From positions 1 to 64,000 of the forward strand of contig NC_050721.1 in assembly GCF_013402915.1 (NCBI RefSeq): DNA of 64,000 bases, given 5' to 3'. The DNA is from Zygotorulaspora mrakii (Eukaryota; Ascomycota; Saccharomycetes; Saccharomycetales; Saccharomycetaceae). A program made the position numbers and the translations under genes. This document shows, in pieces, positions 5,846-63,189 of this stretch (positions are counted from its first letter, which is position 1; each line of letters starts with the position of its first letter). Under the pieces are notes generated by a model. The model did not search any database. It saw only the letters and a program-made list of their open reading frames with translations, and was not told the origin of the DNA.

Positions 5846-5854
5846 ACAACAACA

Positions 5855-5899
<45 letters not shown>

Positions 5900-8600: not shown

Positions 8601-8666
8601 ACTACACCATTAAGCCTACTTAAATACTACTCAACTGCAAAATCCCACAGCTTCTATAAATCTATA

Positions 8667-16190: not shown

Positions 16191-16383
16191 TTGTTCTATT
16201 TAATTGTCCTACCACTTGAGACTAAACCCATGTACATTCTTCGACACCGGTGACTTTTTATATCTTCATCGTGTTCACCATTTTATGCCATATTATTCGT
16301 AATTCTTTTCCAAAAGTCTTCTGCTTGAAATTTGTGGCGCGTTTGCTCTGCTATGCGGGCCGACGACTCAATGCTGTTCCACC

Positions 16384-17489: not shown

Positions 17490-17497
17490 CATTTATA

Positions 17498-28693: not shown

Positions 28694-31600
28694 TTGTATT
28701 CGTGTATTACGAATACAATCAGAGAATCATTAGGTTAGCAGGATAAGAACCATCCTTACCGTATGTAAGACTCTTTAAGACAGAGTGCTACTTACACAGG
28801 TGATTGAAAACCCTGTTGATTACTCGAGTTCATCGATAAAATCAGAATCCGATTCGACAAAAATTGGCTCGCAGTCATCATTACGCTCGGACGCAAAAAA
28901 CATCGAGTTCCCAACTCTATACATGTCACTTTCATCGTCTTCTATCCATTGCTCAAACGGTATATCATTCACCAGGGGCAAGTTGTTGCCTAGTCCGAAG
29001 CACTTCAATCGATTACGAAGATTCATAGTGCACTTCAAATTGGTGCTTGAGAGTGAAAACCTGTTCTCTAGTACTCTTTTACTAATGGAGAAACACCTTT
29101 CGACGTCTGCTGTTGAGAGTTTTCTGTGGTAAAGGGACATAGCCAAGTTAAAAAGATTAGGATATCTGTCTTGAGTATCTAGCCAATAGTCGAGATAATC
29201 AATGTCAGCATCGATAAGCTCTTCCAGGTACAATTCCCTTTCCGTTTTCACATTCCTCTCAATGATACGAGTCATCTGCTTATGTTTCCTAGGTAGATTT
29301 TTTTAGAATTTTGTACACTTTTTCTCTTGATCCTAAGGGTTTTTTAGTTGGTGTTTCTCGATGGTGCTGGTTTCCGTTGCGGTTTCTTTTTGGACTCGAG
29401 AAATGGGACAGGTATCCTGCCATATATCTATTTGCAACCTCGAGAATATGCTGGTAAGACTCTTCATCAAAATTACTCATTAAAATTTCTGTCTTGCAAT
29501 ATGATTGAAGGTGTGCGATCCAGTATCCAGGCTCAGCGAAAGCAATATCTAGATACTTCTTGAACTTTGGATATGCATTCTCATTGGCAAAAAGGACTTC
29601 GTTTCTCACGCCATCCTCGACATCCCGCAAATGGCCTTTTTCCAAACTTGTGTTTCTTAAATGCCTTTCATCTGTTGACCAGCTCTTTACTTGCTTGCAG
29701 GTTTAGAAAAAAGCATCGATTTGCATATAATACTCAATGCCATTCGGAAGTGTATTGAGCTGATCGTCTTGTAAAAGCAATGTGTATTCGTAGAAAATTC
29801 GAGCAACCCGAAGGAAAAAGATGATGGTCTTCATCTCATTTGGCTCGTAGCAAAATACCTCTAAGTCCTCCGGCATTAGCTGATACTTGCTATCTAAGCC
29901 ATGATCGAATTAGGAATTTCGAATAGGACCTGTTAGTTTCAATAATATAGAAAGCTGGCGATAACAAACAAGAACCTGGTATCGCTGTGCATTGCTATAG
30001 TTCTTGATGTGTACTCTGTCAGCTTACTTCTTATAAAAGCATTGATTTTCATCAGAAAAGCTAGTCGATCAATTCTGGATAATAATGGTTTCTGCGACTT
30101 TTCGAACGCTGCCATTATATCAAAAGACTCCGTTCAAAACATGATTCATGCACCGTACTTTTATCAAGCCTCCTTCCTTGTTTACGCCTGGGGCACCCCT
30201 TATATCATTTTCAAGATCGTTTAGCGTCAATATATTGTTGCTCTCATTATCGACAGTAATGCTACTGATTTTATGCGCAATTGAAAACTTACCTAATGTA
30301 TTGAGGAAGGCTTGTTTTGAATTGTTCCCCGTATGTCTCACGTGGCTTAAACCCACGACTTCAATGACATGAGCATTTGGAAATCCATTTGTGATCACAT
30401 CGTGAATTGGCAGTTTCCGTTCGTATCTAGCTAAATTCGGACAGAAAAAAACAATAACTGCAAGATAGCTCCTTTGATTCGAGGATGTCCACATACCTAA
30501 CAAAACGTTCTAGTTAAAAGAGGTTGCCAAAACGTCCCGCATTTGATGATTGAACTCCTCATCATACTTTATCATCAAATTTACCAACCCTTTTCGCGAG
30601 CGGATATAGTCGCCATTCCTAACATACGCGCTGTATAGTAGTTTCTTGTATGCAGGGGCCTCAGCTGTACTAAATTGAATGATGGTCTCAATGAAAAAAT
30701 TTAGTAGTGTTATTTTGAGCTCATTCACAGACATGAAGTGCAGTAGTTCTTTTCTGAATGCGAAGGGTTTGCAATTCGTCGAAATCACGCCTTTAAAATC
30801 AGTTATTTGTGGTTGCATATTCCTCAATTTGTTCTGAAACAACTCAAAATCGCCCTTGTGGTTTCGCCTGAGATGGGCAATAATATTAGAAGAAGTAGTA
30901 TTGCCATCGTGAGAGAACAAATGTTCGCAATCACTATGTTTACAGATTGCATATGGTTCTTCTGCAGTATATTTAGTAACCCACATACCATATGGCGTCC
31001 CCTGAGCCTAACATCAAAGTTCTTTCCTTATATTTTTCTCCCAAAAGAGAGCTATCTGCACTGGGGTGGATGCTGGGTTTTTCGAAAGGATTGAATGAAA
31101 ACTCATCAAAGCGGAAGTTGTACTTTTTTCTGAAGGCCTCTTCTGCAGTGGAAGGGCTGCAATCATTTCTTTCTTTGCTTGAACATATTCCAGTCTGGGC
31201 GTCGCTTTCCTCATAATAATCAGAATCATTATGGCAATAAAAATAACTCCGGTCTAAGGGACTTATCATGCGGTTTCGGACCATAGCGCAGGGCGCCAGG
31301 ATAAAAATTTATTATCTGATTCACACTTGTTGTCCCTAAGCTTCCTGACATGCTCTGGATTGTAACGCCCTTATTTCCATTAGAAAAGATCGGAAGACCC
31401 ACCCTATGATCGATTTCTAAAGATCCCTTTGAGGCTGGACTAAGAATATGCTGCCTTACTTCGAGCGGATTTTGTTGTCCGCATGGCTCTGCCTGTTCAG
31501 ATTCCTTATTCGCCGGCAACCTTGTATCATTACCAGAATTGTCCAGTACATTCTCTTCAAGTCTAGGTTCGGCAGAGACACCCTCTACTTCATTTCCATT

Positions 31601-32461: not shown

Positions 32462-32955
32462 ATATTTGGAAGAAAGATTTTCTTCGGAGTTGTGGATAGT
32501 GACCTGGTTAGACATTGATAATAATAACATGGTGTTCGGTTTAGAGATATATAAGCCCTTGTTTCTTATTTGATAAAGTGGAATAAAGCTAATTGAACTT
32601 AGATTAATATCTGGAAAAAACGTCAGTATTCATACCTAACATTTTGCACCTATTGAACCATAAGAGAGGACGACGATTGAAGCATTTTCATCGTCATCAC
32701 ACCATTTCTAGTCCCATAGAACCCACAGTACAACTGTTATTTCGTCTTCATTCCATAGACTCCTTCGTAGTCAGATTCCTGAATTGTAAACGTCTCGCGA
32801 TAGATTATCATCCGATATCTTTCCAGTAACGATTGACATTCTGTTAGGGTTTCATCTGACTTCGTTTATTTTGTTTTACAGACCAATTGTCTTGTTTCTG
32901 ATGCTTATAAGTCATCTCTTTAATATATCTTACAATATCCATTTATATTTCAACA
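32462..32955 (+). repeat. LTR-like dispersed repeat, copy B
   Basis: It is highly similar to copy C at 39,228-39,731 over its length. Identical stretches include CACACCATTTCTAGTCCCAT, CATAGACTCCTTCGTAGTCA and AACGTCTCGCGATAGATTAT. It ends in ATATTTCAACA (32,945-32,955), the usual 3' terminus of yeast LTRs. The very next base begins homology to the guanidinobutyrase-family pseudogene, so the repeat was inserted into, or recombined within, that gene. The 5' end is approximate; no 5-bp target duplication was found. Confidence 0.7.
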
Positions 32956-39227: not shown

Positions 39228-39731
39228 ATATGAATGTTATTTGAAAAGAATGTGTTCTTCGGCGTTGTCGATAGTAACTTGGTTTGACATTGATGATAAT
39301 ACTATGATATTCAATATAGAGATATATAATTCCTTGGTCTCCTATATCACGAATTGAGATAAAACTAATTGAACTTGGATTAATATCTGAAAAATACGTG
39401 AGTATTTACACCTAACATTTCACACCTATTGAACCATAAAAGAGGAGGACGAGTGAAGAATTTTCATCGTCATCACACCATTTCTAGTCCCATAGAATCC
39501 ACAGTACAACTGCTATTTCGTGTTCATTCCATAGACTCCTTCGTAGTCAGATTCCTGAATTGTAAACGTCTCGCGATAGATTATCATCCGATATTTTTCC
39601 AGTATCGATTGATATTCTGTTAGGGCTCCATCTGGCTTCGTTTATTTTGTTTTACGGACCAATTATCTTGTTTCTGGTTCTTCTAAATCATCTCTTTCAT
39701 ATATCTTATAATATCGATCTATATTTCAACC
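39228..39731 (+). repeat. LTR-like dispersed repeat, copy C
   Basis: It is the near-identical partner of copy B, ending ATATTTCAACC at 39,721-39,731 (the final A of CAACA is changed to C). The two copies flank YHB1 and the acid phosphatase pseudogene in direct orientation about 6.8 kb apart, an arrangement that permits deletion or duplication of the interval by recombination. Confidence 0.7.
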
Positions 39732-40226
39732 AAAAAAATGTTGCTTGGAGAAATTTTCCGGAAGATTCTCAATTAAACCATTTTTTCGACTATTATTCCG
39801 AAGTTTAATATTATTGATTGAGCCTAATTCGAAGAAATGGATATGGTTGACAAAAAATGTATCTAATCTTGGTTCTCTAGTAAAGAGGAACCTCAGGCGT
39901 GTCAAAAGTCCGCAGAACGACACGACACGACTATCCACACTGCAGCACATCATACAAGCAGCAGGCATCAAAACTTTATCTGAGTGGCCTCTGTTAGAGC
40001 ATATGCAGCTTTGTATATAAAAGTATGGGATTAGTGAATTTGGACACTATAATAACCCTCAACTTGGTTATGGTGAGCTTTCGGAAAGCAATCAACCATT
40101 CAGATAAAACATTTAGCACCATAGCAAAGAACGGAAATCCGTCCGAAGACGCAAAATATCTACAAAGGATTGATCACCGATGGTATATACTAGAGCCTTC
40201 TTTAGAACTGCTGCCGCAATATTTAA
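39732..40226 (+). other. Unidentified coding-like segment
   Basis: Plus-strand translation 39,745-40,020 followed by the next frame gives protein-like sequence (RLSTLQHIIQAAGIKTLSEW, then KYGISEFGHYNNPQLGYGEL) with stops between. It is better than random in composition, but I do not recognise a family. It may be a gene remnant; confidence is low. Confidence 0.25.
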
Positions 40227-43200
40227 CTACAAGTTCAGTAATACTTTCAAAGTTATTTCTTCGGTGGAGGCGATATCCTCAATGGCTTCCGTGTACACAA
40301 ATCCCATTGCCTCGTCATATATGCTGTACGATTTCCTCGCCCGAGCTTCACTAAAAGGCGTCTGAGATTTTGACGTTTCTGAAAGAACTGAAGCAGAACC
40401 AACGCTATTAAGATTATTTTCGCCTTGTGCTTTCAAAAGTTCCCGCAGTGGCAATCCGCGCTCGACATGTAACACGTACAACGAACACTCTCCTGTGGGT
40501 TCATTTTCGCCCCTGTTAGTTTGTTTTCGGAGGTACCCCGTACAGCAACCTCTCATCCTAGGCACATCCAACCGATGTGGAATCAAACAATAATGTACTC
40601 AAATCGCTTGCATACAGCCCTGTGGAGCCATTCCGGATTTTATGAGAATAAAATCGTACATCTTTGAATGTCTGTGGTGCTCCATGTCTTCTCCTTCCTC
40701 TCCCGATGATACATCTATTCGAACATCGTGGGCAATACTGCGCACCTCGCTAATCTCCCTCGGACAACTTTGCTCCTCCCACGAGTTGCAACACAGCTGG
40801 TGATCTGGTCTGGTACTGGCAGCAAGTAGAACGACGCCACTGCTTCCGTTATACACTTGCTCCAGATCACATTCCGCAAGTCCTCGTGTGCAACTGCATC
40901 TCTGAACTCCTTTTTTTTCCAGCTATCCGAACCACCTTCAGGTACCCACTGCCTCGGATCCGTCTAACCATCTGTAGAAAGTCTATCACATCCACATCAC
41001 AGTCTGCCAGACACACATAGTCCACCGCATTGCAGTCAAGACCGTTCGATATCAGCTTGGTCCCCATGATCACGCGCACTGGACTCGATGCCGACTCGAA
41101 TTCGCGAAACACCAACAGCTTCAACCGGTCCGGCATCTCTGCATCCGCGATTTGTTAATGAAGAAAAAGATGGCCTTTCCACTCTCAGTGCCCAGCAGAT
41201 AGCTATTCAATAGCTTCACCAAAATTTGGATCCACAAGTGTGATCTCCCTAAATACTTTCTGGTTGGGCACGCTGTGCATCGCATTTTTCCTGCGCGCAT
41301 GCTGCCCATGTGTTGTTATAGATTTAATTGTTTACACAGCTCGTCCATCAACCATTGTGGAAACGTGGCACTTGGCAGCACTATTTTGAGAAACTGTCTT
41401 CGGTTCATGCTATGCAGCTCCAGAAGTCGAAGCCGAACCTCCCGCTCCAACCACAGAGCGTGTTCCTCATCCACAAATAACTGCCCTTGATGCTTCACAC
41501 AGAGCAGTTCCTCGTTCCATTCGTTGATAAATGTGAACGTATCGTGTGTGGCAAATATGCAAAACGTCCCCACAAGCACATCTGTGTTGCTCAGTTGGCT
41601 TTTGCGGTCGCTCGAGATCAGTACTGCCACATCGGCTGCTTGCAAACCCACATCTCTCAGCTATTGGATCGCAGCCATCTTGAACTACACATACGCCAAG
41701 GGGATAAGATGCACGTATTTATCTGGCCGTGTTTTTCAGAACCAACATCGGCAGCACGTACGTCATCGCTTTTCCAAGCACGGTGCAAGTCTGCACTGCG
41801 AGGACCCGCCTGCCTCCCATTAGAAGCATGTTTGTGAACCATTTCTACTCCTGCTCCTTCGTCATGAGCTCGAACCCTGGTATAATTAACTGGCGTGTCC
41901 CAATAAGGTCGTTTGCTTAGCCGCTGCGGTCCTCTATACTCTCGTCATCTTCTTCCTCCGTCCTCATTCACTTCTTCGTAGGGGTCCGCGTGTTGAGCCT
42001 CTGAAATATACGACATAATCCCTTCGCCATGGCAAATGAAACGTCTTCTGTCCCAACTGACCATGCATTATCATATCTATCAAAAGACAGATCCACAACA
42101 ACTGAGGGCCCGAATGCCCTAGCCACCTCCTCATTGAAATAGCGCACTGCCGCAACATTGGCGACTACATGAGGTGCCGCCACAGCACATTTAGACCCTG
42201 TCTCAGCGATTCCAGTCTATGCGACTCTCGCATTAGGGTACTTGAGCATCACTTTGAGAAACCTCGAACGCTGCACTATTACTAGACGCTGCACATCGAT
42301 AAACACTATACTCCTGAAAATGGGGGGGGGGGGGGCTGCTTTACTGTTGAGAGCCCACATCGCTTACTCGAGCTCCCAGTTCTATCTGGTGTTCGTACAA
42401 TTCTGCATTGAAATTCGTATCGTTGCTTCCTCTTCAACACTCTGTGTAACCGGCAATAATTGTGGAAACGCTGCTGTGATTACTGCTAAGTTCATTTTCC
42501 ATACTTCATTCCCCAAATACTTATCGTGAACGGACGAAGGATGTACATGAACCAGAAAAGCTTGGCAGATACATCCTCATCAAAGACAGTATTGGAGTGT
42601 CGTATTTTGTGTTCGTGTGGTACCTCGACCGAATGATAAAGACACGATCGTCGGAGTCAAAGTACAGGTTGCGATGTGTCCCGCTGAAGCTCAGTATGCT
42701 TAGTTCCAGAAACCTCAGTGCGAGACCAGGACTGATCCAGACCGCCAGCATCAGTAACTCCGTTATGCCATTGATGATATTTGAGAATTCTATCGCACTT
42801 TTGCTTGTTGTTTGCGTCCTGTCGATTCCGGAAAGCCATAATATGACAATCTACAACCTAAACAGCACTGGGGCTAGTCCAGTGCCGTACTGGTTGATGG
42901 TATCTAGTGCTAACATCTTCATTATTGAGGAGACAGCAGCATTTATATCGACATTGGCGTAGTTGGAGACATCTCTCTCGGTATTGATATAGACGTGGTT
43001 AAGATGTATTTGCGAAAACGAAACGTATCTCGTGCGCTGCTCTTTGTACTAGCTGAGAACCTAATAGTCACTCTCGGTTAAAGCAGACTCTTGAGTCTTG
43101 ATAAGTATGGCAATGACACTGTTGTCTTTGTCCAGGCACAGATCCAGATTATCCTTTAATATAGCAACGGGCTTTTCTTGGACCTTTACTCTCAGATATT

Positions 43201-43560
43201 TATACTTTTGGGTCCAGGATACACGGTGACAACTCTTACTAAATAAACAGTCAACGCTGTCAGGACTGCGCCGCATTAATACACGCGTCTCAATAACGGT
43301 CGCTCTGTTCTTTAATTTAACAAACCCGTATTCTTCCAATGCTGAAAGATCGAACAGCTCAGCGTCAGGGATTCTGACAACAGGATCCCCGTTCTGAAAA
43401 AATTCTCCCAGTCACAGAGCTGTTGCGATAGTATTTTGTATCTGCTGGTCATAGAGAGACCTCTAAGATTCGTGTTGGTGGGATTAACCAGTCTGTGTAT
43501 TTTCCTGTCTAGTAGCCAGCCATTTACTACCACATATCTGCCATTTACGTCATGTATCAT
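40227..43560 (-). pseudogene. Y'-like telomeric helicase, nearly full element, degenerate
   Basis: Minus-strand fragments follow the order of the Saccharomyces Y' helicase. The start is MIHDVNGRYVVVNGWLLD (43,560). Later GFELMTKEQE leads to RVLAVQTCTVLGKAMTYVLP near 41,755-41,805, aligned with the Walker A segment AVQAPPGYGKT, so the GKT has become GKA. VLVGTF then precedes LFVDEEHALW (DExH box, about 41,465), LPSATFP (motif III, about 41,370), and VRVIMGTKLISNGLDC with FLQMVRRIRGSGY (motifs V and VI, 40,930-41,080), where the expected GR.R is RRIR. C-terminal pieces run to about 40,227. Many stops and frameshifts and a C14 run (G14 at 42,322-42,335) break it. Intact homologues are SF2 helicases carried by chromosome-end repeats. 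At 3.3 kb it lacks part of the 1,859-residue reference length. Confidence 0.75.
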
Positions 43561-43760
43561 TCTCTCCGGGACTGCTACAGCCGCGCGTTTGCAGGATCCC
43601 GCGGATGAAAAAGGAAAAACTATTTCTCGAGCTCCGAGGAAAACTTATCTTTCATATCGGTCCAGCGCCGTTCTCACTCATTTGGCGAGCAATGAAAAAC
43701 ATATTTTCCGTCGCGGGTGTTCATTTTTTTATTTGCTCACGTGCTCCAATCACCGCCTTG
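43545..43760. repeat. Subtelomeric repeat, copy 3 (5' flank of Y'-like element)
   Basis: It matches copy 2 from 20,497 onward: CATTTACGTCATGTATCAT versus CATTTATGTCGTTCATCAT, then CCGCGGATGAAAA, GGAA.AACT and TTCTCGAGCTC. The match weakens after about 43,660. Confidence 0.65.
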
Positions 43761-51151: not shown

Positions 51152-51735
51152 CCTAGTTTGTGACTTTGTCTCACATCGAAATATTTCGTAACACAAGGCT
51201 TCTCATGCTATGCTGAGACTATATAACTCGGGAGTTAGAAACATTATACACTGTGCGGCTAAATACCCGCTATGTTCATTGTGTTATTGAGTAATATTGA
51301 TTTTATTTTTCATCAAAAAACCACTGCTGATAAGGTTCGGCTAAGTACCCGAAATCAATCAGCATTCTTTCTGATAAGCCCAACACGGACGCACTTTGAA
51401 CCCCATCGCCACACAGCAGTGGCCTGTTGTACGTATCTATTACCCGCCAAGTCTCGTACCCTTCAGAAGTGTTTAATCCTTACTTACGTTATACTAGGAC
51501 TTTGCGTTGCATTATGGCGATTTTTATGTTTCACCAGGGGCTTTAAACTGCATGAAGACCGTACTACTTACCTGAAGCTGATAACAAGTGCATTCAAGAA
51601 AATTGAAATCGGATAATAAGTTGCGCTCTCAAACTCTTCCTTTCACTATATATAACAGTACCAAATATTTTAGAGTAAAGGAACGTTGGCGGATGTAATC
51701 AAAAATCTAACAAGCAAAAGCTAACTCAAGAAAAC
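51152..51735. promoter_or_regulatory. Shared MFS/ACC deaminase promoter with GATAAG motifs
   Basis: The divergent 584-bp spacer holds GATAAG at 51,329-51,334 and 51,373-51,378, GATAAC at 51,580-51,585 and GATAAT at 51,612-51,617, all on the plus strand. Two full GATAAG sites 44 bp apart resemble a nitrogen-regulated upstream activating element. A TATATATAA stretch occurs near 51,648. Regulation by GATA factors is inferred. Confidence 0.5.
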
Positions 51736-52752
51736 ATGGGGTTAGAAAAGTTTAAGCGTTATCCTCTTACCTTTGGTCCTTCACCAATCACCCCTATGAA
51801 GAGACTGTCTGATCTTTTGGGAGGGGAGGTTCAGATATATGCAAAGCGAGAAGATTGCAACAGTGGTTTGGCGTTTGGCGGTAACAAGATCAGAAAGCTT
51901 GAATACCTCATTCCAGAGGCGGTCGATGGTGGCTACGATACACTTGTATCTATTGGAGGAATTCAATCCAATCAGACTAGACAGGTTGCAGCAGTTGCAG
52001 CCCATTTGGGAATGGATTGCGTTCTTGTCCAAGAGAACTGGGTGGACTATAAAGAGGACGTGTACGACAAAGTTGGTAACATCGAACTCTCCAGGATCAT
52101 GGGTGCAGATGTAAGACTTGACTCTGCAGGCTTTGATATTGGAATCAGACCAAGTTGGGAGAATGCAATGGACAGTGTGAAAGCACAGGGTAAAAAACCA
52201 TTCCCTATCCCAGCAGGATGCTCTGAACATCCATATGGAGGATTGGGTTTTGTTAACTTCGCCAACGAGGTGGCAGAGCAGGAGAAGGCTCTGGGCTTTG
52301 AATTTGATTACATCGTTGTTTGTGCAGTAACTGGCAGCACCATGGCGGGTATGGTCGTAGGCTTTGCATTTCAAGGCCGCCAAAAGAAGGTGATCGGCAT
52401 TGACGCATCAGCAAAACCAGAAAAGACCAAAGCTCAAGTCTTCAGAATTGCTGAAAACACTGCCAAACTTGTTGATCTTCCCGTTAAATTAACACCCGAT
52501 GATATTATTTTGGATGACAGATTCGGAGGGCCTGCATACGGATTGCCCAATGACGGAACAATGGAGGCCATTCGCCTTTGTGCGCGCACGGAGGGTGTGC
52601 TCGTAGATCCCGTATATGAGGGCAAGTCTATGGCTGGTCTCATACAGCTTATTAAAGAGAAAAAAATTCCAAAGGGATCGAAGGTCCTCTATGTCCACCT
52701 GGGTGGGGCCCCAGCTTTGAACGCTTATTCAGACCTATTCAAAGAAGGCTGA
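51736..52752 (+). CDS. 1-Aminocyclopropane-1-carboxylate (ACC) deaminase
   Basis: This intact PLP enzyme has 338 residues, close to the 338-341 of known ACC deaminases. Lys51 in [12 protein letters not shown] forms the Schiff base; Ser78 lies in [10 protein letters not shown]; Tyr294 in DPVYEGKS is the catalytic Tyr. Glu295 and Leu322 ([11 protein letters not shown]) are the residues that separate true ACC deaminases from the related D-cysteine desulfhydrases, and both are present. It opens the cyclopropane ring to yield 2-oxobutyrate and ammonia in the cytosol, letting the cell use the plant ethylene precursor as nitrogen source. The enzyme is characterised in bacteria and in the yeast Cyberlindnera saturnus; its patchy occurrence in yeasts suggests horizontal transfer. 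Adjacent genes are nitrogen-related (CPS1) and a VBA-like transporter. Confidence 0.92.
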
Positions 52753-53026
52753 ATAGTGATCAAACAACGCTATATAGTACTCAAGCACGATAAATAGTTA
52801 AAGCACGATTTATATACGCGCCAAACTTATCTATCTATGCTCTTATCTCAATTTTTCTTAATTAAATGGCAGACTACAAAACTATATAAACAGGAGGAAT
52901 TTCAGTTTTCTCTCTCCAAATATTTCCAGTTTTTCTGTGCTTTGCTTTAGAGACTGCTTTTCACTCCTGCCAAGCTGTCACAAATTAGAATCGATAAATT
53001 AGAGTTTACAAAACAAAAAGCAAAGG
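52753..53026 (+). promoter_or_regulatory. CPS1 copy 2 promoter with four GATA cores
   Basis: Within 274 bp there are GATAA at 52,789-52,793 and 52,993-52,997 and CTTATC (GATAAG on the minus strand) at 52,826-52,831 and 52,842-52,847. This is the densest cluster in the window and resembles promoters under GATA-factor nitrogen control. Confidence 0.55.
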
Positions 53027-54736
53027 ATGGTAACTGTTCATAGACTTGTAGCTATCATCGCCACCACATTCGCTTTTTGTAATGCATTGGGTTCAGCAGA
53101 TGCTTTGAAGATTCAAAGAGGCTTCACTATGTTAGATATGCACCAGGTTTTAGATGACAAAGACTGTTGGATACCTGAAATACCAGCATTACCTGAAGTG
53201 AGCTCAAACATTTACAAGAACATTGTCGCAACTCTTTCAACCGTCCAATACCAGCAAAAATGTATTTCAAGGTTTCAACGCGCAATAGGAGTTGACACTG
53301 AGACAAACGATGATTTTGGTACTGTTCAAGACGATATTCGCTGGTCTAAATTCTATAACTTCTCCGCATTTTTAAAAAAGGATTTTCCATTGGTACATCA
53401 GCATCTTCAGCTGGAAAGGGTAAACTGCCATGGGCTGCTTTACACCTGGAAACCCGCCTCAGAGAGGGATCAAGATACCCATTTTTCCAAGCCATTCGTG
53501 CTGATGGCTCATCAAGATACAGTCCCGGTCTCGAATAAAAGCCTAGCTGAATGGAAATACGATCCGTTTGAGGGGCATGTCGATAAAAGTGGCATTATAT
53601 ATGGACGTGGTGCACATGATGATAAAAACTCCTTGATTTCCATTATGGAGGCAGTTGAGCACCTTCTGAAAAACCACTTCCAGCCAAAACGCACGGTAGT
53701 CTTGGCTTTTGGGTTTGACGAAGAAGTAAGCGGCAAGAGGGGTGCATTTGAAATATCACAAGTCTTGGAGCAGAGATATGGTAAACAAGGCATCGAATTT
53801 ATTCTCGATGAGGGACCTGGTATAATCGATCCAGTTGCACCCGGGGGCAAAGTTGCCTATGCGACTGTGGCGACATCTGAGAAAGGCTATTTGGACGTGC
53901 TAATTGAGGCGAAAGGCTTGGGGGGACATTCCTCATTAGCAGGTAAGCATACTCTAATAGGCATAATGGCAGAAATGATCGTTGCTCTCGAAACAAAAGA
54001 CCCCCTTGCGCCACGAGTTTCTCGAGATAGCCCAGTAATAGAATTTCTCTCCTGTCAAAACTTTAGTACCCGAGATGTGCCGCTTCTGCTTAGAAGAATC
54101 AGAAAAGGGGACATTGATGCAGAATATGATCTTGGCCTTCTCCTCCAAAATACTTCCTTGGCGGTTATGTCACGCACGTCCCAGGCAATAGATCTAATAT
54201 CAGGTGGCCAGAAAATAAATGCTCTTCCAGAAAGGGTCTCCGTAGGAATCAATTATCGCATCGCTCCTGGCTTGACTTTGAAAGACATCAAGGCTCGAAT
54301 CACATCCATCCTGGAACCAATTGCAATGAAATACAACATGACGTCGTTTTTTTTCGGCTCTCAAGAAAGTGTATCCTGCTCGGACAGTGAACTGTGTATT
54401 TCGCAAGTTGGCAAAGCTCTAGAGCCTGCTAAGATGTCCCCTCAGAATACGAAAGCTTATTCAGTAGTATTTGGTAGCGTCAGTTCAGCATTGAACCCCA
54501 TCTTCACTGAAACATTGAATGTGGAGTCACTGGTTGTTGTACCAACTCTTATGGCTGGCAATACTGACACTCGGCACTTCTGGAATCTGACACAAAATCT
54601 CTTTCGCTTCCGTCCGACTCGAATTGACATCAGAAACAATGGAGGGCACACGGTAAACGAGCACATTCATGTAGATGATCACTTTGCTTCCATCCAGTTC
54701 TATTCGTCATTGATACTTAGGGCAAGCGCGATGTGA
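53027..54736 (+). CDS. CPS1: Carboxypeptidase S (M20 metallopeptidase), copy 2
   Basis: The intact protein of 569 residues has the M20 zinc ligands in place: His162 in AHQDTVPVS, Asp198 in GRGAHDDKN, Glu232/Glu233 in DEEVSGKRGA, Asp261 in LDEGPGI, and a His in NTDTRHFW near the end. The GLGGHSSLA segment of the lid is also present. Unlike copy 1, the N-terminus starts directly with a hydrophobic segment (residues about 5-22, LVAIIATTFAFCNALGSA), ending in a possible cleavage site, so this copy may be secreted or vacuolar-luminal rather than anchored; that is inferred. It probably hydrolyses C-terminal residues of peptides. It follows ACC deaminase on the same strand after 274 bp. Confidence 0.92.
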   Translation: MVTVHRLVAIIATTFAFCNALGSADALKIQRGFTMLDMHQVLDDKDCWIPEIPALPEVSSNIYKNIVATLSTVQYQQKCISRFQRAIGVDTETNDDFGTVQDDIRWSKFYNFSAFLKKDFPLVHQHLQLERVNCHGLLYTWKPASERDQDTHFSKPFVLMAHQDTVPVSNKSLAEWKYDPFEGHVDKSGIIYGRGAHDDKNSLISIMEAVEHLLKNHFQPKRTVVLAFGFDEEVSGKRGAFEISQVLEQRYGKQGIEFILDEGPGIIDPVAPGGKVAYATVATSEKGYLDVLIEAKGLGGHSSLAGKHTLIGIMAEMIVALETKDPLAPRVSRDSPVIEFLSCQNFSTRDVPLLLRRIRKGDIDAEYDLGLLLQNTSLAVMSRTSQAIDLISGGQKINALPERVSVGINYRIAPGLTLKDIKARITSILEPIAMKYNMTSFFFGSQESVSCSDSELCISQVGKALEPAKMSPQNTKAYSVVFGSVSSALNPIFTETLNVESLVVVPTLMAGNTDTRHFWNLTQNLFRFRPTRIDIRNNGGHTVNEHIHVDDHFASIQFYSSLILRASAM

Positions 54737-55722
54737 TGATGCAATTATTAGTTAGCGTAACCTGTTCTAATCACACGCATTGTTACAAGAATATACGTTT
54801 GTAAAGAAAAGAAACATCAATAGAATCTTGCAGAGATTAAGTTGACCCGCAGTGATATCCAGCGTTTTGTTTTTCGCAATTTTCTCCCCAAATTGCAACT
54901 ATCCATGGTGGAGTTAAATTTAATTAAAGCAAATACAGATGCCTTAAAACGCCATATGATTATATCATATAACCCAGAGTACCGGCAGACTGTCTCAGAA
55001 CTGGCTTCGCCGAATCATACAACCTCTAAGTGTCATAATTTTTGGAGCAGGAATATGCAAAGAACCTCATTCAAAAGTAGTCAGCAAGGCGTCTTCAGTC
55101 ACATGCCATACTTCTAGTAGCGGAAGAAGATGCAACTTACAATAAACGCATACACCTCATACACTGCATACGCTGCATGCACTGTCGTTTTTGGCTCAAT
55201 GGATGCTGAAAATTTTCACCGCAATAATAGATGCTGTTATAATTCGATGAGGCGCATTTTTGGAATAATTAGAGATGACATTCTGTAACGTTCCCGTTTT
55301 TTATTATGTTATATAGAACGGGAACGAAGTTCCTAGACACATTTAGTGCATGAACTTGGGCTCACAAACGTGGCGTTAAAGCTTGTGTGCCTAAATCTTA
55401 GGGTTTCGATGCTTTTATTAATCTCAATATATTAGCCCAATATATTAGCTTAACTCTCTTAAAATTAATACTATAATAATATGATCCTTTTTGAAGGCAC
55501 AGTAACGGCAATCCTGCGCAACAGTCGTCCAAAGGTATTTCACCCAAAAGATAAGCATCCGGCAAATGGAACTTCTTTTACAATTTTGGAATCTTGATTC
55601 TCGCTTATCTCTTTCATTCTCAAATGACAATGAATATATAATTTTAGAAATCACCAACTTGTTTTACAAGGCTGTAATGACAGTCAGGACTGAAATCAGT
55701 GTGAGGTTTTCCTGAGAAAAGG
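54737..55722. other. 986-bp spacer before Zn2Cys6 gene
   Basis: No gene is seen. The plus frame 54,842-55,117 (91 codons, non-ATG start) has no features. ACGGGAACG-type sequence occurs twice near 55,290 and 55,318 as an imperfect inverted repeat (GTTCCCGTT / AACGGGAAC). Confidence 0.5.
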
Positions 55723-57798
55723 ATGACTGCTCTCAAGGAAGTTAACGGCAAACAAAAGAGGCGAAGAGGAAGAGTTCCTGATAGTGAACGGATTCGAAAA
55801 GCCGTAGCTTGTGAAGAGTGTAAAAGGCATAAATACAAGTGTGTAGGAGGAGTCCCTTGTAATAGATGTATTATAAAGGATGTCTCATGCAAACAAGAGC
55901 CACGGGTCCGCGTAAGCAAGGAAATTTTAACCACCACCGTTCAGCGGCTTTCCTATATGGAGGCTATCATCAAGGCCACCTTTCCCGGCGTTGAGACATC
56001 TGTCGAACAGATGAAGTTGAAGCTAGCAGAACTTACTGGAGATGCTAAAGCTCGGGAGTTGATTTCTCACATAGACTTTCGAAATATTCAGCTTTCAGAT
56101 GGAAATACGGTTCATACTTTCTATGAAGACGCCGGTTCAACATCAAGTTTTGTGGTTCGAGCTTGTGAGATAGTCTCCAATGCAACCGGAAAGGGACCAA
56201 CAAAGCCTGAGTCACCTGAGATGCAATATGATGTTAATCTCATCGACAAGAAGACAGGAAACATTACCAGCGAAGCATCTAATACATTTTCTGAGTTACT
56301 CAATGTAGCCTTATCCCGATTGCCACCGCTGGAGGAAGCACAAAAACTGATTGACATATTTATCTCTGTTTCTGGGAATAATACCTTTTTCTATTGTGAC
56401 AGCTCGTGGTTTAGATCAATTGTACGGCGCATATATTACAACAGATCAGAAATCGGATTGAAAGATATCAATCATGTGTGTCTTCTATACGTAGGACTCT
56501 GCATGGGTTCCACTTTCGCTTATGTCTGGAAAGATAAGGGTATTCAGCAAGAAAGGGAGAATAAAAGATTTCCTGGTCTGGAGTTCTACGAACATGCTCA
56601 ACTCTTGTTTCCGGCAGTGATCAACGACAGCTCTATGGAAACTGTACAGGTGTTCTTTCTGGCTGCCATGTATGTGCTTGCTGGACAGGAAATGGAGATG
56701 GCTTATAGTTATCTGGGGATTGCCTTGAGAGCAGCCATCGCGAATGGTATGCATAAGAAGTTCCCTTTCAAAGACCACTTTGAAAACAATGTGACAGAGG
56801 CTAGAAAAAGGCTGTTCTGGAGCATTTATACGATTGAGAGGCGTTCCAGTATAGCTCTCGGCCGTCCAGAGACTTTGCCCGTATCTGAAATTGATCTCGA
56901 TCTACCGTCTTACTGTGAGGCTTTGGATGAAAATTCAGAAAACGCGAATGTCACGTGTATGACTCTTATAATCACAGTGTCGCTTTTAACTATAAAGATA
57001 CATGATATGTGGTTTCGAAGAAAGGAACATGGGTTGAAATTTGCCACTATCATGGATTTATATCACAGTATAGACTCCTGGTGGAAACAAGTTCCCCCAG
57101 AGTTTGAGGTCAAATCGATGAAAATAGGGGATCCATCTTACAGAGGTGCAGTTCACGTGCATTTTGCATATAATTTAGCACAGATAACTCTCGGGCGGCC
57201 ATTTCTTTTGTTGAAGTTAAGAGATAGTAATTTTCCCGTCGATCTTGATGATGATATGAGCTCTTTCTCCAGTCGGATGGTTCTGTATTCGTACAACGCG
57301 GCCACGGAAATTGTCGAGACTCTTTTAAACCTGAGAGCCAACAATTTGCTTTCGTGTTATTCCTTCAATGATTATAACGCCTGTCACGGAGCTTCTTTTG
57401 TACTGGTGGTGTACTTGGCTCTTTGCCCATCTACAGAGGCACTACAACGACTCAACGAGTCTGTCAGTATTTTGCAGCAGATATCTCAGAGCTGCAAGTA
57501 CACTCAGAAAAGTACCAACGTGATATTGACCCTGAAAAGCATCGTTCAGCAAGGGCAAACATATCAGCGGTGGATTCACGAGGCAGTACTCGGCATCGGA
57601 GAAACCGCAGACCCTGATTTCAAACTAACAACAGACAACTATGAACTCCAAAACGATACATGGGGTAAATTGGACGCATCTCTTGGTGCCCTTACAGGAG
57701 AGGACTGGTTTTCCTCTCTTTTTTCTGACGGATCCTTTCCTTTGGAGTCGGATCATTTTCTTGATGATCTCTTTCAGAATAACGTGCCCGACAACTAG
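55723..57798 (+). CDS. Zn2Cys6 transcription factor with fungal regulator domain
   Basis: The intact protein of 691 residues has its zinc cluster at Cys30, 33, 40, 46, 49 and 56 (C-X2-C-X6-C-X5-C-X2-C-X6-C), flanked by basic QKRRRGR. A linker and dimerisation helix follow (VQRLSYMEAIIKATFPG). The fungal transcription factor domain covers about 190-480, with VQVFFLAAMYVLAGQEMEMAYSYLGIALRAA and ARKRLFWSIYTIERRSSIALGRP, the most conserved block of this family. The C-terminus is acidic and aromatic (DWFSSLFSDG), possibly an activation domain. It lies between CPS1 copy 2 and the carboxylesterase/DAL5 pair, and I infer that it may govern one or more of these. It is not a close copy of the regulator at 26,269. 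Confidence 0.92.
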   Translation: MTALKEVNGKQKRRRGRVPDSERIRKAVACEECKRHKYKCVGGVPCNRCIIKDVSCKQEPRVRVSKEILTTTVQRLSYMEAIIKATFPGVETSVEQMKLKLAELTGDAKARELISHIDFRNIQLSDGNTVHTFYEDAGSTSSFVVRACEIVSNATGKGPTKPESPEMQYDVNLIDKKTGNITSEASNTFSELLNVALSRLPPLEEAQKLIDIFISVSGNNTFFYCDSSWFRSIVRRIYYNRSEIGLKDINHVCLLYVGLCMGSTFAYVWKDKGIQQERENKRFPGLEFYEHAQLLFPAVINDSSMETVQVFFLAAMYVLAGQEMEMAYSYLGIALRAAIANGMHKKFPFKDHFENNVTEARKRLFWSIYTIERRSSIALGRPETLPVSEIDLDLPSYCEALDENSENANVTCMTLIITVSLLTIKIHDMWFRRKEHGLKFATIMDLYHSIDSWWKQVPPEFEVKSMKIGDPSYRGAVHVHFAYNLAQITLGRPFLLLKLRDSNFPVDLDDDMSSFSSRMVLYSYNAATEIVETLLNLRANNLLSCYSFNDYNACHGASFVLVVYLALCPSTEALQRLNESVSILQQISQSCKYTQKSTNVILTLKSIVQQGQTYQRWIHEAVLGIGETADPDFKLTTDNYELQNDTWGKLDASLGALTGEDWFSSLFSDGSFPLESDHFLDDLFQNNVPDN

Positions 57799-58209
57799 TA
57801 GGTTGCAGTGTTTAAGAGAATGCATTTGGAAAAGTGGTAGCTCTCATGCTGTTAGATTTTACAATTGTAAATAAGAAGAAACGTCTCACCTTTAGAGGTA
57901 CGAGCGCCTCCTTTTTGAATCATCGATAAGGTCTGCCTCAGAGGAATATATCGATAAAGTCGCACGCGCGAGAAAATCAATTATGAGACTTACTACCACA
58001 TCAAGCCGGATAATCAATGTTTTGTTTAAAAACAATTTAGATCTTCTTCAAACTTGAATCATTACCGCCAATATGCTCAAATCTAGTTGGTTGTTTATTT
58101 TCTCTATCACAAATATCTTTAATTTTTATGCCATGTTCTTTAGTACTACAAAAAGCATATTTAAAACTACATTTTTGCAAAAACCAGGTATTACGTGATA
58201 CATAATACT
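57799..58209. other. Convergent spacer, no gene
   Basis: This is the 3' flank shared by the regulator and the carboxylesterase. Open frames reaching into it from the esterase side are out of frame. Confidence 0.6.
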
Positions 58210-59823
58210 CTAGAGGCCCATCGATTTCGCCACTACACCACCTACTTTCAATCCCCAGTCCCAAGTGGAATCCTGCTCGACGGTTATAGACCCGTCAGCA
58301 TTAAACACTCTTAGTTGTTGTGGATCCGTGGTACCCCAGTCCGTCTTACCATGGCTAATCCATTCGCAATAAGGTTTAAGCCAGGACATATAGAATTGCT
58401 TCTCCTCTGGTATAATCCCATCAACATAATTATAAAACCACACACCCATGTCTCCGGCATGGGGCACAAGCATCTCGCGAGGCTCGTATTTGTCGAAGTA
58501 TGATCCTCTATATGCAATCCTGTATCTGTAGATTCTATCTGCGGGAACACCACCCTCAATCAGGCTGCGTACAAAAACTCTACTAGATGCATAGACCTGT
58601 AAGTCGCTGACAATTCTGCCGTACAGAAACCTAAGGTTTTCCAAGTGTTTCTCACTGTCATTGGTGCGCGGAAGGTCAGGATATAGTTCCAATAAAGCCT
58701 TTGTCACGGACCTTGGGTAATAGTTGTTTATTTGATTAAAAAGATCCTCGGTGCTTTTGGGCGGATTGGTTTTGGCATAGACAGCGTGTTCGTTGATAAC
58801 TTCTCCTATGATGAATGATCTTCCAGAGTCTTTCGCTTTCTTTCCAAAAGAGCCATTCAGTATATCCGCGAACAGGGTAGGTGAAATCATGTCGTTATCA
58901 GTGACACCTCTGAACGTGTGCAGATTAAGATCTAAGATTTTCTCCGCAAAAATTTGATATGGTATCGCACGCAAAGCGTTTAGCTTTGCAGCACCGGAAA
59001 GACCAGAATCAATGTCGAAGACTTCCAGCACCTCTTCAAACTGCTCCCGGCACTCCGTGACGTATTTTGGTTGAATAGCTAGTCCGTTGGAGATAAGTAA
59101 GGTCCTCTTTATGATCTGATTGATCTTAGGATGGTACATCTCATATGCCACCTGGAAAATAGACGAGTACGAGCCTGCGCTCACTCCTCCAAGGGTGATA
59201 TTCTCTTTATTACCCCCAAATTTGGGAATGTGCTCGTAAATCCACTCAAGTCCGAGACGCTGATCCCAAAACCCAAAGTTACTGTTCTCACTATCTTCAT
59301 CTAAGAGCTCTTGGCATGATAAAAATCCAAAAATATTAAGCCTATAACCTGGTGAAACAACAATGAATTTTTCTAGACTTTCCTCAGCTTGCAGGTCCTG
59401 GGGATCGCACTGGCGATAATGGAGGGGATTTCCAACCTGGAGCCATCCGCCGTGAATGAAATACAGCACAGGCCAGCCACCAATTGGTGGGCGGCCTGCA
59501 GGTATCCAAATGTTCAGGAAAAGGCAATCTTCATCAAATTTGAAATCCGGATTGCGCTTTCCACCTCTATTGTTGTAAAAGGGCTGAGGACAAATTGTTT
59601 TGTAGGAAGAGTAATCACCAGAATAATCGTAGTCGTGAGGCAAGGGTTGAGGTCTCCTCCATCTGAGATCACCTACCGGAGGCTGTGCGAACCTAATTCC
59701 AGTGTAGCGGTGGCACTTTTCCTTGGAGTTGGGGTCACAGATGGTCAATGCTTTCAAAGTGCCCAATCCGTCTATGTTGGTTGATGTGACTTTTGAGTTA
59801 GTAATTATTGGCGATTCGTACAT
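58210..59823 (-). CDS. Type-B carboxylesterase (cholinesterase family)
   Basis: The protein has 537 residues from the ATG at 59,823; the frame is open further to a TTG at 59,871 but an ATG start is preferred. Typical marks in order are the substrate-entry segment GIRFAQPPVGDLRWRRPQ, DEDCLFLNIWIP, the oxyanion loop FIHGGW (about residues 123-127), SPGYRLNIFGFL, and the nucleophile elbow GGVSAGS with Ser215. A later acidic segment (GEVINEHAVY) and PHAGDMGVWF with the likely catalytic His follow. There is no signal peptide or membrane segment, unlike secreted lipases of this family, so a cytosolic enzyme is likely. It hydrolyses esters of unknown nature. It is divergent from DAL5 copy 2, sharing a 514-bp promoter, which suggests joint control. 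Filamentous fungal esterases look closest, so transfer is possible. Confidence 0.88.
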   Translation of the reverse strand: MYESPIITNSKVTSTNIDGLGTLKALTICDPNSKEKCHRYTGIRFAQPPVGDLRWRRPQPLPHDYDYSGDYSSYKTICPQPFYNNRGGKRNPDFKFDEDCLFLNIWIPAGRPPIGGWPVLYFIHGGWLQVGNPLHYRQCDPQDLQAEESLEKFIVVSPGYRLNIFGFLSCQELLDEDSENSNFGFWDQRLGLEWIYEHIPKFGGNKENITLGGVSAGSYSSIFQVAYEMYHPKINQIIKRTLLISNGLAIQPKYVTECREQFEEVLEVFDIDSGLSGAAKLNALRAIPYQIFAEKILDLNLHTFRGVTDNDMISPTLFADILNGSFGKKAKDSGRSFIIGEVINEHAVYAKTNPPKSTEDLFNQINNYYPRSVTKALLELYPDLPRTNDSEKHLENLRFLYGRIVSDLQVYASSRVFVRSLIEGGVPADRIYRYRIAYRGSYFDKYEPREMLVPHAGDMGVWFYNYVDGIIPEEKQFYMSWLKPYCEWISHGKTDWGTTDPQQLRVFNADGSITVEQDSTWDWGLKVGGVVAKSMGL

Positions 59824-60337
59824 TTCTTTTGGTTGTTGATTACTATTATGAGGATTAACTTTTTTTTTCAAGAGAGTGCCAGGTGAAAATTGATAATCGA
59901 CATGTCGAGATATACAGTTTGAAGCGCCTGCCCAATATAAGCAAAATCACTTTCTGAATTGAGCTTTAAATGTATATTGATTATCTGCGATAGTTAATGG
60001 GTACACACCCGGATACTGGCTTGGTTGTTATCGTTCTTGCCAGGATTGATAAGCGGATATTTTTCCGATATCAAAATGCGGGCAGCTCGAAAAGAGAACG
60101 AGGCGAGACTGCCGCTTCCTATTTCGCGGGTAAACACCCTATCAAATTTAATCAATCTATTAACCACAGTAAATGCTTCAAGTAGTATCGCAATGATTCA
60201 TCGCTGAAAGACATATTTAAACGAAACCAGTTTTCTAACACTATCAGTTACCTCCTTACAAAAACATTCCATCTAGAATTAGCAGTGGCAAACTTGTTGT
60301 CTTCCAATAACTCGCGAAATACACTACACTATTTCGG
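59824..60337. promoter_or_regulatory. Shared esterase/DAL5 promoter with GATA cores
   Basis: The divergent 514-bp spacer contains GATAA at 59,892-59,896, TTATC at 59,981-59,985 and 60,028-60,032, and GATAAG at 60,048-60,053. The last three fall within 73 bp, about 290-360 bp before the DAL5 start. Nitrogen control is inferred. Confidence 0.5.
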
Positions 60338-61885
60338 ATGACGGAAGAAAAGAAAGAGAATTATAAAGTCGATGTTGAAGATGTTGAGCATGGTTCCTTG
60401 TCTCAAGAAGATGTCCCGTGTAGCTTACCGCAATTACTGGAGTCAGCAGATGCTGATGATGCATTCGAGTATGCAAAGAACCTTGACCAAGACACGGAAA
60501 TAGACCCAATTGCTGATAGAAAGCTCACATGGAAAGCTGATATGATAATCTTTCCGATGATGGCCTTAGTTTATGCGGCGCAATTTCTGGATAAAACCTC
60601 AATGTCGTATGCGGCGGTGATGGGATTGCGAACCGACCTCAATATGAGGGGTGACATGTACAGCTGGTCTGGAACCAGTTTTTATTTGGGATACTTAATA
60701 TTTGAGTATCCAGCTGCGTGGCTTCTGCAAAAGTACCCTTTAGCAAAGACCATGGCTATTTTTCTAATTCTTTGGGGGTTCGTTTTGACAATGACTTCCG
60801 TGGCTAACTATCCTGGGTATATTGCAATCAGAACTATTCTTGGTATGCTGGAATCTAGCTCCTCGATAGGTTTCATGCTTCTTACCTCCCAATACTATCA
60901 CCGCAAAGATCAAAGTGCAAGGACTGCATTTTGGGTGGCATGCAATGGTGTGGGGCAGATAATGGGTGGGTCAATGGCATACGGATTAGCCAAACGGGAA
61001 GCATCTTTGCCTCTTGCTGGTTGGAAATTGATTTTCATCATTTGCGGTGTCATTACCATTTTTCTGGGATTGCTGTTTTGGTTGGTTGTCCCAGACTCCC
61101 CATTTAAGGCTTGGTTTTTGAATGATGCAGAAAAAACGTTGATTGTTCATAGGTTGCGTAAAAATCAGCAAGGTGTCGGCAATCATACGTTTAAGAAATA
61201 TCAATTTATTGAAGCCTTCACTGATATCCGAACGTGGATCATGTTCTTCTCCTCTGTTGCTTTGAACATTCCAAATGGAGGTATTGGCACGTTTTCGTCA
61301 CTTCTTATTGCAGGTACTATGGGATACGGTGAGCTTATGACTTTACTCATGGGACTTCCAGCGGGTGCTTGTGAATTTGTAGGTTTGATACTATTTGGAG
61401 TCATATCTCCGTTTGTCAAAAATAGAATGGTGCTTGCATCCATATCGACCATTATTGCGCTGATTGGCTCTTGTTTGATGTCTTTTGCGGGGCCTCCGAA
61501 GGCCCAGCTGGCTGGTTACTATCTCATGATGGTTTCTCCAGGAGCCATGATCGTAATGTTCTCTATTGTGTCTTCAAATGTAGCAGGTTATACCAAAAAG
61601 ACGACTGTTGGTGCGATTTATTTGATTGGATATTGCGTAGGAAACCTTATTGGTCCTCAGACTTTCAAGGAGGAGGACTCTCCTGGTTACCGCCCAGCTA
61701 AAATCGTAATGGTAGCTTTTTATGTCGTAACTCTCGTCACGTTACCACTACTATATATCGTGAATCGCAGAGAAAACCGCAGGAGAGACAAATTGGCTGA
61801 AGAGGGAATGGTGCAACATCAAAAGAATTCAGAATTTGCTGATTTGACCGACAAAGAGAACTTAGAATTTAGATACGTTCTTTGA
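60338..61885 (+). CDS. DAL5: Allantoate/dipeptide-type permease, DAL5 family, copy 2
   Basis: This is an intact MFS protein of 515 residues. It shares with copy 1 and yeast Dal5 the helix-1 region FPMMALVYAAQFLDKTSMSYAAVMGLRTDLNM, GDMYSWSGTSFYLGYL, the central loop LRKNQQGVGNHTFKKYQFIEAF, NIPNGGIGTFSSLLIAG, the YTKKTTVGAIYLIGYCVGNLIGPQTF block, and the C-terminus EFADLTDKENLEFRYVL. Twelve membrane helices are expected in the plasma membrane. Substrates may be allantoate, related ureido acids, carboxylates or dipeptides. The helix-1 motif AQFLDKTS..YAAVMGLRTDLNM is closer to Dal5 than in copy 1, while copy 1 is closer elsewhere, so the copies are old paralogues rather than a recent duplication. 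Confidence 0.9.
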   Translation: MTEEKKENYKVDVEDVEHGSLSQEDVPCSLPQLLESADADDAFEYAKNLDQDTEIDPIADRKLTWKADMIIFPMMALVYAAQFLDKTSMSYAAVMGLRTDLNMRGDMYSWSGTSFYLGYLIFEYPAAWLLQKYPLAKTMAIFLILWGFVLTMTSVANYPGYIAIRTILGMLESSSSIGFMLLTSQYYHRKDQSARTAFWVACNGVGQIMGGSMAYGLAKREASLPLAGWKLIFIICGVITIFLGLLFWLVVPDSPFKAWFLNDAEKTLIVHRLRKNQQGVGNHTFKKYQFIEAFTDIRTWIMFFSSVALNIPNGGIGTFSSLLIAGTMGYGELMTLLMGLPAGACEFVGLILFGVISPFVKNRMVLASISTIIALIGSCLMSFAGPPKAQLAGYYLMMVSPGAMIVMFSIVSSNVAGYTKKTTVGAIYLIGYCVGNLIGPQTFKEEDSPGYRPAKIVMVAFYVVTLVTLPLLYIVNRRENRRRDKLAEEGMVQHQKNSEFADLTDKENLEFRYVL

Positions 61886-63189
61886 TTTTGTTTAACAAAA
61901 TTTTTGATTTATCTAGACATGTTTAATCTGAAAAATATCTTTTGTATGGCTGATTTCCGAGTTTCCCTACGAAATCAACTACATTCATATAACTGTTTTT
62001 TTAAGCGACATTCTGTTGACATCAACAGTTACTACGAACGCGTTGGTTCACACACCTGAAGAAAATGGATTATCGACCCCACTAGGAGTGAGCTGTTCGT
62101 GAAGAGACATTGTAAACATCGCAACATCGCACACGATAACTTGGAACGCTCAGTTGAACCAAATGTATGCGGCATTTCTTTATTTTTGATTTGAACTTTA
62201 ATTTTCCATTATCTAAGTGGAAACTCACATACTTCGAAGAGATCCACTGAAACTCAGCAAATAATATCTGGAAACCAACTTGTATTTTTAGATATATGAT
62301 CTCTAACTTCCTTAGGATTTCTTAGCGGTTTTCAATAATATCTGAGAGCGTGTTGTTTTTTTCCAGGCCTTTTGATTAGACTCTCTTTTTAGGCATGACT
62401 CACAAAACGCTGAGGTAATCGAGCAGTTGCGTGTGACGGTTCAAGTCTGGTCTGCAAAATGCGGCATGAACAATTCGATGTAGTCAAAAAACACTGACGT
62501 GCCATTCCGCCACTCATGTCATTTTTTACATAAACAAGAGGTAAAGAGTTACGAGACCTCTCTTTTAAAGACATAGCTACTATAATGAATGTGCAACTGA
62601 AGCCACTTTTTTAATTTTTACGTTTTCAGGAAGTGAAATTCTTCGTTCCTTATGAAGCGATGGCAACGCCCGAACTGCGGCGTTTTTCTAAACAATATCT
62701 ATAACCCCGTGGCGCGTTCCAACGCTGCAACGAAAAGCAAGTAGTCAATACGATGGTGGGTACACTGTAACGTGTGCATCGTCTCTCGTAATGGATCATT
62801 CACAGTCCAATGACGACCCTCAAATCTTAGGCTACTGCCAATTGTGTGAACGTAGCTTGGATGCACGTACATTTCCTATGTATTTATTGTTGCAATGAAC
62901 TGATCGAGTTAATACCAATCTACAGTATCTTAAACGAGCAATTAGAAAAGGCTGAAAATGTCTTTTAAGCCCGATCATTAAGACTTAGATATGTGCAGCA
63001 ATCAAGATAAGGAACGCCACTGTTCCTTGTGCCACATTCTTCAAGTAGTCTTTTGAGTCTATTCATGCTCATACCAGAACATGTATCTTATATTTAAATG
63101 AGATACCTTTATTCCTTATGTAACGCTGATAGCATTGTTGAGAACTCCCACAAAGAGCTTACCGGCAGCTGCATTAAATCTGGTTACTG
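61886..63189. other. 1.3-kb spacer with no recognisable gene
   Basis: It has AT-rich sequence, short frames only (for example 62,389-62,574 minus), and no RNA gene or repeat that I can see. It includes the promoter of the gene starting at 63,190. Confidence 0.55.

Follow-up and report, generated by a model that had tools for sequence, protein, structure and literature searches.

Remains of a Y'-type gene near the start of contig C3

The window analysed here is the first 64,000 bases (1-64000) of contig C3 of the Zygotorulaspora mrakii assembly, which comprises 10.45 Mb in 9 contigs. The genome was sequenced with PacBio and Illumina according to the report cited, which describes Zygotorulaspora as close to Torulaspora (PMC7282813). 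On the minus strand at 40179-43560 lies a frame-broken, internally deleted Y'-type gene, which was delineated by tblastn with P0001 (the protein of the copy at the left end of contig C4) and with relatives of this protein. The collinear pieces run from 43557 down to 40179, are spread over all three minus frames and keep the order Sir1 domain, recombinase-like domain, helicase and C-terminus, with several frame breaks and stops. The preliminary description had placed ordered fragments of a broken Y'-type helicase gene at 40227-43560, and these pieces bear this out.

The first half of the Sir1 ORC-binding domain is found at 43360-43560 (Pfam PF11603, E 1.3e-5, in the frame 43312-43644), with P0001 residues 43-103 aligned at 43360-43557. 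The remainder of this domain and the N-terminal region (P0001 102-278) follow by tblastn at 42854-43381, with two stops in frame. P0001 residues 279-532, about 254 codons, are gone at 42854/42781. The recombinase-like domain resumes with box I and the beta-hairpin at 42359-42781 (P0001 533-676 by tblastn; frame 42521-42850) and continues with box II at 41728-42516 (P0001 622-886; tblastn and residue comparison). The DEAD half of an SF2 helicase occupies 41133-41735, where P0001 885-1090 matches with 50% identity (tblastn, E 6e-84 for linked pieces); the VDEEH box and the SAT motif noted earlier sit in one frame, 41316-41660. The Helicase_C half with motifs V/VI is at 40531-41304 (P0001 1029-1307 by tblastn) and is likewise recognised by Pfam (PF00271, E 8.2e-7, frame 40867-41154). 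The C-terminal part (P0001 1215-1439) is at 40179-40808 by tblastn. In single frames, Helicase_C and Sir1 exceed their Pfam cut-offs and DEAD (E 0.006) falls under its own. The GC content of the relic is 0.468, compared with 0.412 in the window from 44 to 64 kb. In box I the relic reads RFLEL, with the Arg kept. The beta-hairpin reads YHTN instead of YNKN and box II reads FGPS...D instead of FGHS...Y. Because the catalytic Lys is replaced by Thr, the active-site His by Pro and the Tyr by Asp, in addition to the frame breaks, this copy looks dead as a recombinase.

Further relics lie on the same strand. At 16349-17502, P0001 residues 44-427, which comprise the Sir1 domain and the stretch behind it, are spread over two frames (tblastn E 6e-96), with one stop within 16480-17502. 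A gene 3' end is at 8555-8994, its coding part at 8688-8993 (tblastn E 3e-30). A stub at 7505-7609 matches over 35 residues only weakly as protein (E 9e-4 and 0.003 in separate searches) and is 77% identical in DNA over 93 bp to the 8.7-kb relic. Homologues of this stub adjoin the G-poor tract described below at C5 left and C1 right, and another lies immediately on the inner side of the C4-left gene. The C1-right stub is not independent evidence, the window and C1 right being 99.9% identical in this region. Thus, where three further relics had been proposed, those at 16.35-17.5 and 8.69-8.99 kb are clear, and that at 7.51-7.61 kb is real but weak as protein. All relics in the window run toward position 1, which lies at the telomere, in accordance with the common orientation claimed before.

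The older, weak 3' stub is embedded in a common inner flank at 7133-8559, which is 93% identical to C4:12202-13608; the first part of this flank matches each of the two direct repeats around the C4-left gene. The inner end of the repeated unit, CACGTCGGGGCAKAAGAATG, is at 8536-8555 on the plus strand, as determined by comparison of chromosome ends. Beyond it, the DNA differs at three junctions (C4 left, C3 left/C1 right and C5 right). A search with the flank also revealed a piece with 76% identity at 20648-20833 on the plus strand. Inverted repeats of the kind that may mark a recombination site were not found in window 7000-9100.

Several other features were observed in the window. A dispersed repeat of about 495 bp occurs at 32463-32955 and 39235-39730, as well as at C4 left 16463-16924 and C6 left 2520-3015; one copy lies just outside the main relic. 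A hAT transposase C-terminal domain is at 28820-29275, and BED zinc-finger frames are at 18028-18675 and 30510-30986 (the latter below the Pfam cut-off); these frames may be remains of hAT-type elements. Window 51616-62820 is 98.8% identical to the last 11.2 kb of C3 right. This segment holds genes for a PALP enzyme, an M20 peptidase, a Zn-cluster regulator, an esterase and an MFS protein, and its C3-right copy adjoins a Sir1 relic.

Telomere side and copies at other chromosome ends

The telomere side was compared among 13 contig ends (both ends of C1, C3, C4, C5 and C6 and the left ends of C2, C7 and C8); the C1-right stretch in this comparison ends 500 bases short of the contig end. Repeats of 13 nt (CCCCTACACCGCT or -GCA types) begin the sequences of C1 left, C4 left, C5 left, C4 right, C5 right and C6 right. 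There are at least two versions of this telomeric repeat, ending in -CGCT at C1 left and C5 left and in -CGCA at C4 left, C4 right and C6 right; C5 right is mixed. Five further ends (C3 right, C2 left, C6 left, C7 left and C8 left), the ones outside the eight with the tract described next, show no telomeric repeats. Base 10 of the window corresponds to position 106 of C1 left and to position 179 of C5 left, in both cases directly after the last telomeric repeats, and the match continues from there. Because the match begins right there, position 1 of the window lies at the telomere, just inside the 13-nt repeats.

Between the telomere and the Y'-type unit is a G-poor tract (1-7100; G 1.5% at 501-6500). 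It is homologous at 8 of the 13 ends compared (the window, C1 left, C1 right, C4 left, C4 right, C5 left, C5 right and C6 right), with 1-3% G on the inward-read strand and G-free runs of up to 476 bases. TelKO of Naumovozyma castellii is a subtelomeric sequence beside the telomere, with 75-82% T+G and a length of 220-445 bp (PMC12408736). The G-poor tract resembles TelKO in being subtelomeric, in lying beside the telomere and in its strand-biased composition. However, the tract is about 7 kb long, compared with 220-445 bp, and the passages on TelKO in that paper mention no coding unit. Z. mrakii is absent from the main text of a survey of Saccharomycetaceae telomeres.

A protein search of the genome with P0001 gave at least 33 match rows, of which at least 30 belong to the family. 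Of the family rows listed, 29 of 30 are within 44 kb of a contig end, and in all 29 the coding strand points outward; the main window relic contributes 10 of these rows as pieces. Nine of the 16 ends of C1-C8 carry family rows; the 45-kb zones at both ends of these contigs make up about 7% of their length. A search with the relative P0004 gave 15 rows, all at ends, and one with the flank (window 8100-8560) gave 12 matches, all within 28 kb of an end. The single internal relic, C1:715022-715285, comprises 88 codons of the recombinase-like region at 41% identity and is possibly the trace of an old chromosome end or of an insertion. It adjoins a GNAT-like frame (labelled by eye), far from any end. 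The idea that such copies are internal only, raised in the preliminary description as a counter-case, was rejected because only 1 of 30 family rows is internal.

The other counter-case was a better match to an unrelated SF2 helicase. Helicase motifs alone would fit a relic of an ordinary DEAD-box helicase that is subtelomeric by accident. Three DEAD-box-like genes (C1:988426, C3:161715 and C5:1051096), which look like ordinary DEAD-box genes by sequence, match P0001 over the helicase core only (E 1.8e-7 to 3.5e-5), whereas in the relic the Sir1 and middle regions are collinear with the helicase. Moreover, the helicase-core tree joins the window piece to the C4-right Y'-type copy with 100% support, the other Z. 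mrakii copies being adjacent; the deep order of this tree is not firm because the S. cerevisiae group and the DEAD-box outgroup are on long branches. From the core-only matches and the tree, an unrelated DEAD-box helicase was rejected, and we consider such an origin extremely improbable.

The best copy is C4:7403-11764, which is open for 1454 codons from stop to stop, with the first Met at codon 41; homology runs on past its stop. The C1-left copy has a broken N-terminus and one frame break, and the C4-right copy lacks about 290 N-terminal residues and contains frame breaks. The protein encoded by the better copies is about 1450 residues long and combines a Sir1-type ORC-binding domain with an SF2 helicase and a cysteine cluster. 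In P0001, the Sir1 domain is at residues 46-165, DEAD at 847-1012 and Helicase_C at 1071-1166, and all three are common to its relatives P0005, P0006 and P0007. Because these better-preserved copies exist, the Y'-type element is a feature of the Z. mrakii lineage, as had been suggested from the window ("is, or was"). The search of chromosome ends with a YRF1-type protein, which had been recommended, thus yielded copies; among those compared, none intact from end to end was seen.

Exchange between ends and selection on the copies

Copies are common to several ends, mosaic, often truncated on the inner side and apparently stacked as tandem remnants. Window 28-10021 is 99.9% identical to the C1 right end over 10 kb, which indicates a very recent exchange or copying between these chromosome ends. 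C4 right and C6 right are 97.9% identical over 5.8 kb. In 250-bp bins, the two ends of C4 show 92-100% identity as far as C4 position 8750 and 55-69% identity from 9000 to 10750, so that the telomere side has been homogenised. The C4-left gene is bracketed by 237-bp direct repeats that are 84% identical and 5.54 kb apart, and the window contains two 3' stubs 1.2-1.3 kb apart. As judged from their arrangement, these are probably remnants of a tandem organisation. What was observed toward the tandem arrays anticipated earlier is these stubs and direct repeats; an intact tandem pair was not seen among the Z. mrakii copies.

To explain why ends share blocks, homologous recombination is sufficient by itself. 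The elements may have spread by homologous recombination or break-induced replication only, the recombinase-like domain being a catalytically unused DNA-binding fold. The kilobase-long shared blocks, such as that of C1 right and the window, and the sharp identity step on C4 are in favour of this, as are the inner-side truncations, which the 2025 N. castellii paper also notes for S. cerevisiae Y' (PMC12408736). However, five catalytic residues are kept across distant copies, the common inner end is followed by different sequence at the three junctions, and the copies are under selection. Purifying selection on the Y'-type copies, as measured in codon alignments, is shown by dN/dS values of 0.30 for C4 left and C1 left (1053 codons), 0.27 and 0.21 for C4 left and C4 right (315 and 176 codons) and 0.28 for C1 left and C4 right (258 codons). 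For the older N-terminal half, two comparisons gave a dN of about 0.30, with saturation at synonymous sites. We therefore regard spread by recombination only as possible, at clearly less than even odds.

Alternatively, host retrotransposon machinery might copy Y'-type RNA to DNA and so give rise to further copies; in S. cerevisiae without telomerase, Ty1 does this for Y' (cited in PMC7175516). The shared blocks, however, take in the non-coding tract and the telomere side, and we judge this route very unlikely. RNAi as a restraint on the element was rejected because there is no Piwi-domain match in the Z. mrakii genome.

A putative tyrosine recombinase between the Sir1 domain and the helicase

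The region between the Sir1 domain and the helicase is likely to be a tyrosine recombinase with five catalytic residues, in YRF1 as well. This identity was predicted from motifs before the structure models were compared. In the comparison, the middle region matched tyrosine recombinases, with both the core-binding and the catalytic domains covered and the catalytic Tyr paired. Active-site R, K, R, H and Y are present in order, with H-x8-Y (XerH residues were used as the reference). In P0001, where the putative domain spans about residues 225-790, they are R555, K588, R729, H761 and Y770. XerH, Cre, integron integrase, XerA and Tn1549 Int share this fold and these residues. In contrast to them, the putative domain of the Y'-type protein is part of a fusion, with a Sir1 domain on one side and a helicase on the other. 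It is also longer between the hairpin and box II than these recombinases, and the His of HxxR is not kept: this position is R, S, L or M in the Y'-type copies. Not all known tyrosine recombinases keep this His. Because it is missing, we file the region as a likely recombinase fold and not as a proven member.

Other searches for this domain were negative or underpowered. Pfam, PHROGs and PDB searches gave no match, and neither did hhalign, for which 2 of 4 positive controls were also low (6% and 1.5%). Foldseek was run on both models and a recombinase was not among the matches listed; the VIA list of the first model was filled by helicases, and the comparison of viral structures with the model gave nothing at E 0.001 or better. 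A largely helical model might match by chance or convergence, the middle region then being another kind of domain. However, the 8 top rows all fall into a single superfamily, both of its domains are covered, a large gap separates them from unrelated rows, and the motif prediction preceded the match. We consider a chance match unlikely.

Our best explanation, to which we assign a probability of about 70%, is that the relic is a dead Y'-type chromosome-end element and that the better copies encode a Sir1-recombinase-helicase protein that acts in the spread of the element. Through its Sir1 domain, the protein would be tethered to Orc1, either at subtelomeric origins or in silent chromatin; the recombinase would cut and rejoin DNA at element copies or excised circles, and the helicase would help to open or copy DNA. 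Homologous recombination out to the telomere would then homogenise the distal side. Y' circles occur in S. cerevisiae, where Y' elements also carry ARS and are amplified in telomerase-negative survivors.

The Sir1 ORC-binding domain is otherwise that of the Sir1/KOS silencing proteins, and complexes of Sir1 with Orc1 have been solved (1zhi, 1zbx). In the Z. mrakii genome, five places exceed the Pfam cut-off for this domain, and each of them is a copy or relic of the Y'-type gene at a chromosome end. A sixth place, outside these copies, scores 14.7 bits, below the cut-off. In Zygosaccharomyces rouxii and Torulaspora delbrueckii, KOS3 is a gene of its own (PMC6405483). In the assembled contigs of Z. 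mrakii, from which several ends are missing, no separate KOS3 was seen above the cut-off of the Pfam Sir1 model, which may miss KOS3 proteins.

The Y' type of Z. mrakii and what it may mean for Y' elements

The domain order of the C4-left copy is that of S. cerevisiae YRF1. P0001 559-1223 matches YRF1 with E 1e-46 and 187-515 with E 1e-14, so that the middle and helicase regions are covered at 24-25% identity; a C-terminal CxxC...CxC stretch is also common to both, with a very low score. Sir1 and helicase domains have been described in the S. cerevisiae Y' protein (PMC6726248). Searches for homologues from P0001 or its alignment gave no match labelled Saccharomyces among the labelled proteins; the search from YRF1 did return a protein labelled Saccharomyces. 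The two elements thus resemble each other in the Sir1 domain, the middle region with the same five recombinase residues, DEAD/Helicase_C, the low-scoring cysteine cluster, the position at chromosome ends and the coding strand toward the telomere, but identity in the aligned regions is only about 24%. These results support the assignment of the relic to a Y'-type telomeric element in a yeast other than Saccharomyces.

Y' elements typically lie directly beside telomeric repeats, with short telomeric tracts between units, an arrangement that is not defining, and their length is near the Z. mrakii repeat spacing of about 5.5 kb. In contrast, the Z. mrakii unit is parted from the telomere by the G-poor tract of about 7 kb. 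Between its tandem remnants there are no runs of telomeric repeats, only single 8-base matches to CCCCTACA (for example at window 7791 and C4 12860).

Y' elements outside Saccharomyces have appeared in print as sources of small RNA, in a review sentence on Candida albicans and N. castellii (PMC5499181); by this description, the elements of N. castellii can be set beside those of Z. mrakii. C. albicans and N. castellii have RNAi, whereas Z. mrakii has no Piwi-domain match. S. bayanus is described as being without Y' (PMC2994660). The Zygotorulaspora Y' type adds to this kind already in print; its recombinase domain, if confirmed, would redefine that kind. The preliminary description contained neither the better copies nor the Sir1 domain or the likely recombinase domain.

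Starships are fungal mobile DNA encoding a tyrosine recombinase. To our knowledge, a fusion of a Sir1 domain with an SF2 helicase is not part of Cryptons or Starships. Cryptons are fungal elements that encode a tyrosine recombinase (PMC7175516), and by description both Cryptons and the captains of Starships resemble the present element in this respect. In the literature searched, which was not exhaustive and was seen partly in excerpt, there was no report of a recombinase in Y'-type elements. In a broader proposal, budding-yeast Y' elements, including those of S. cerevisiae, would be mobile elements with a tyrosine recombinase, Crypton-like in their enzyme, telomere-colonising, aimed by a Sir1-type domain and equipped with their own helicase. 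The recombinase would make and insert Y' circles, and the Sir1/KOS3 domain would be shared by capture, in either direction. We hold this proposal to be plausible, at slightly less than even odds.

In 2010, Y' elements were described as helicase-encoding repeats "of unknown origin and function" (PMC2994660). A hidden tyrosine recombinase, if true, gives Y' an origin as a mobile element and a testable enzyme, and could explain how Y'-type elements spread, in the setting of one of the best-studied telomere systems. Because the Z. mrakii copies have the same domain order and signs of selection, these domains are not an oddity of Saccharomyces. Moreover, through the shared Sir1 domain, a telomeric element is connected with the way in which yeast heterochromatin is nucleated.
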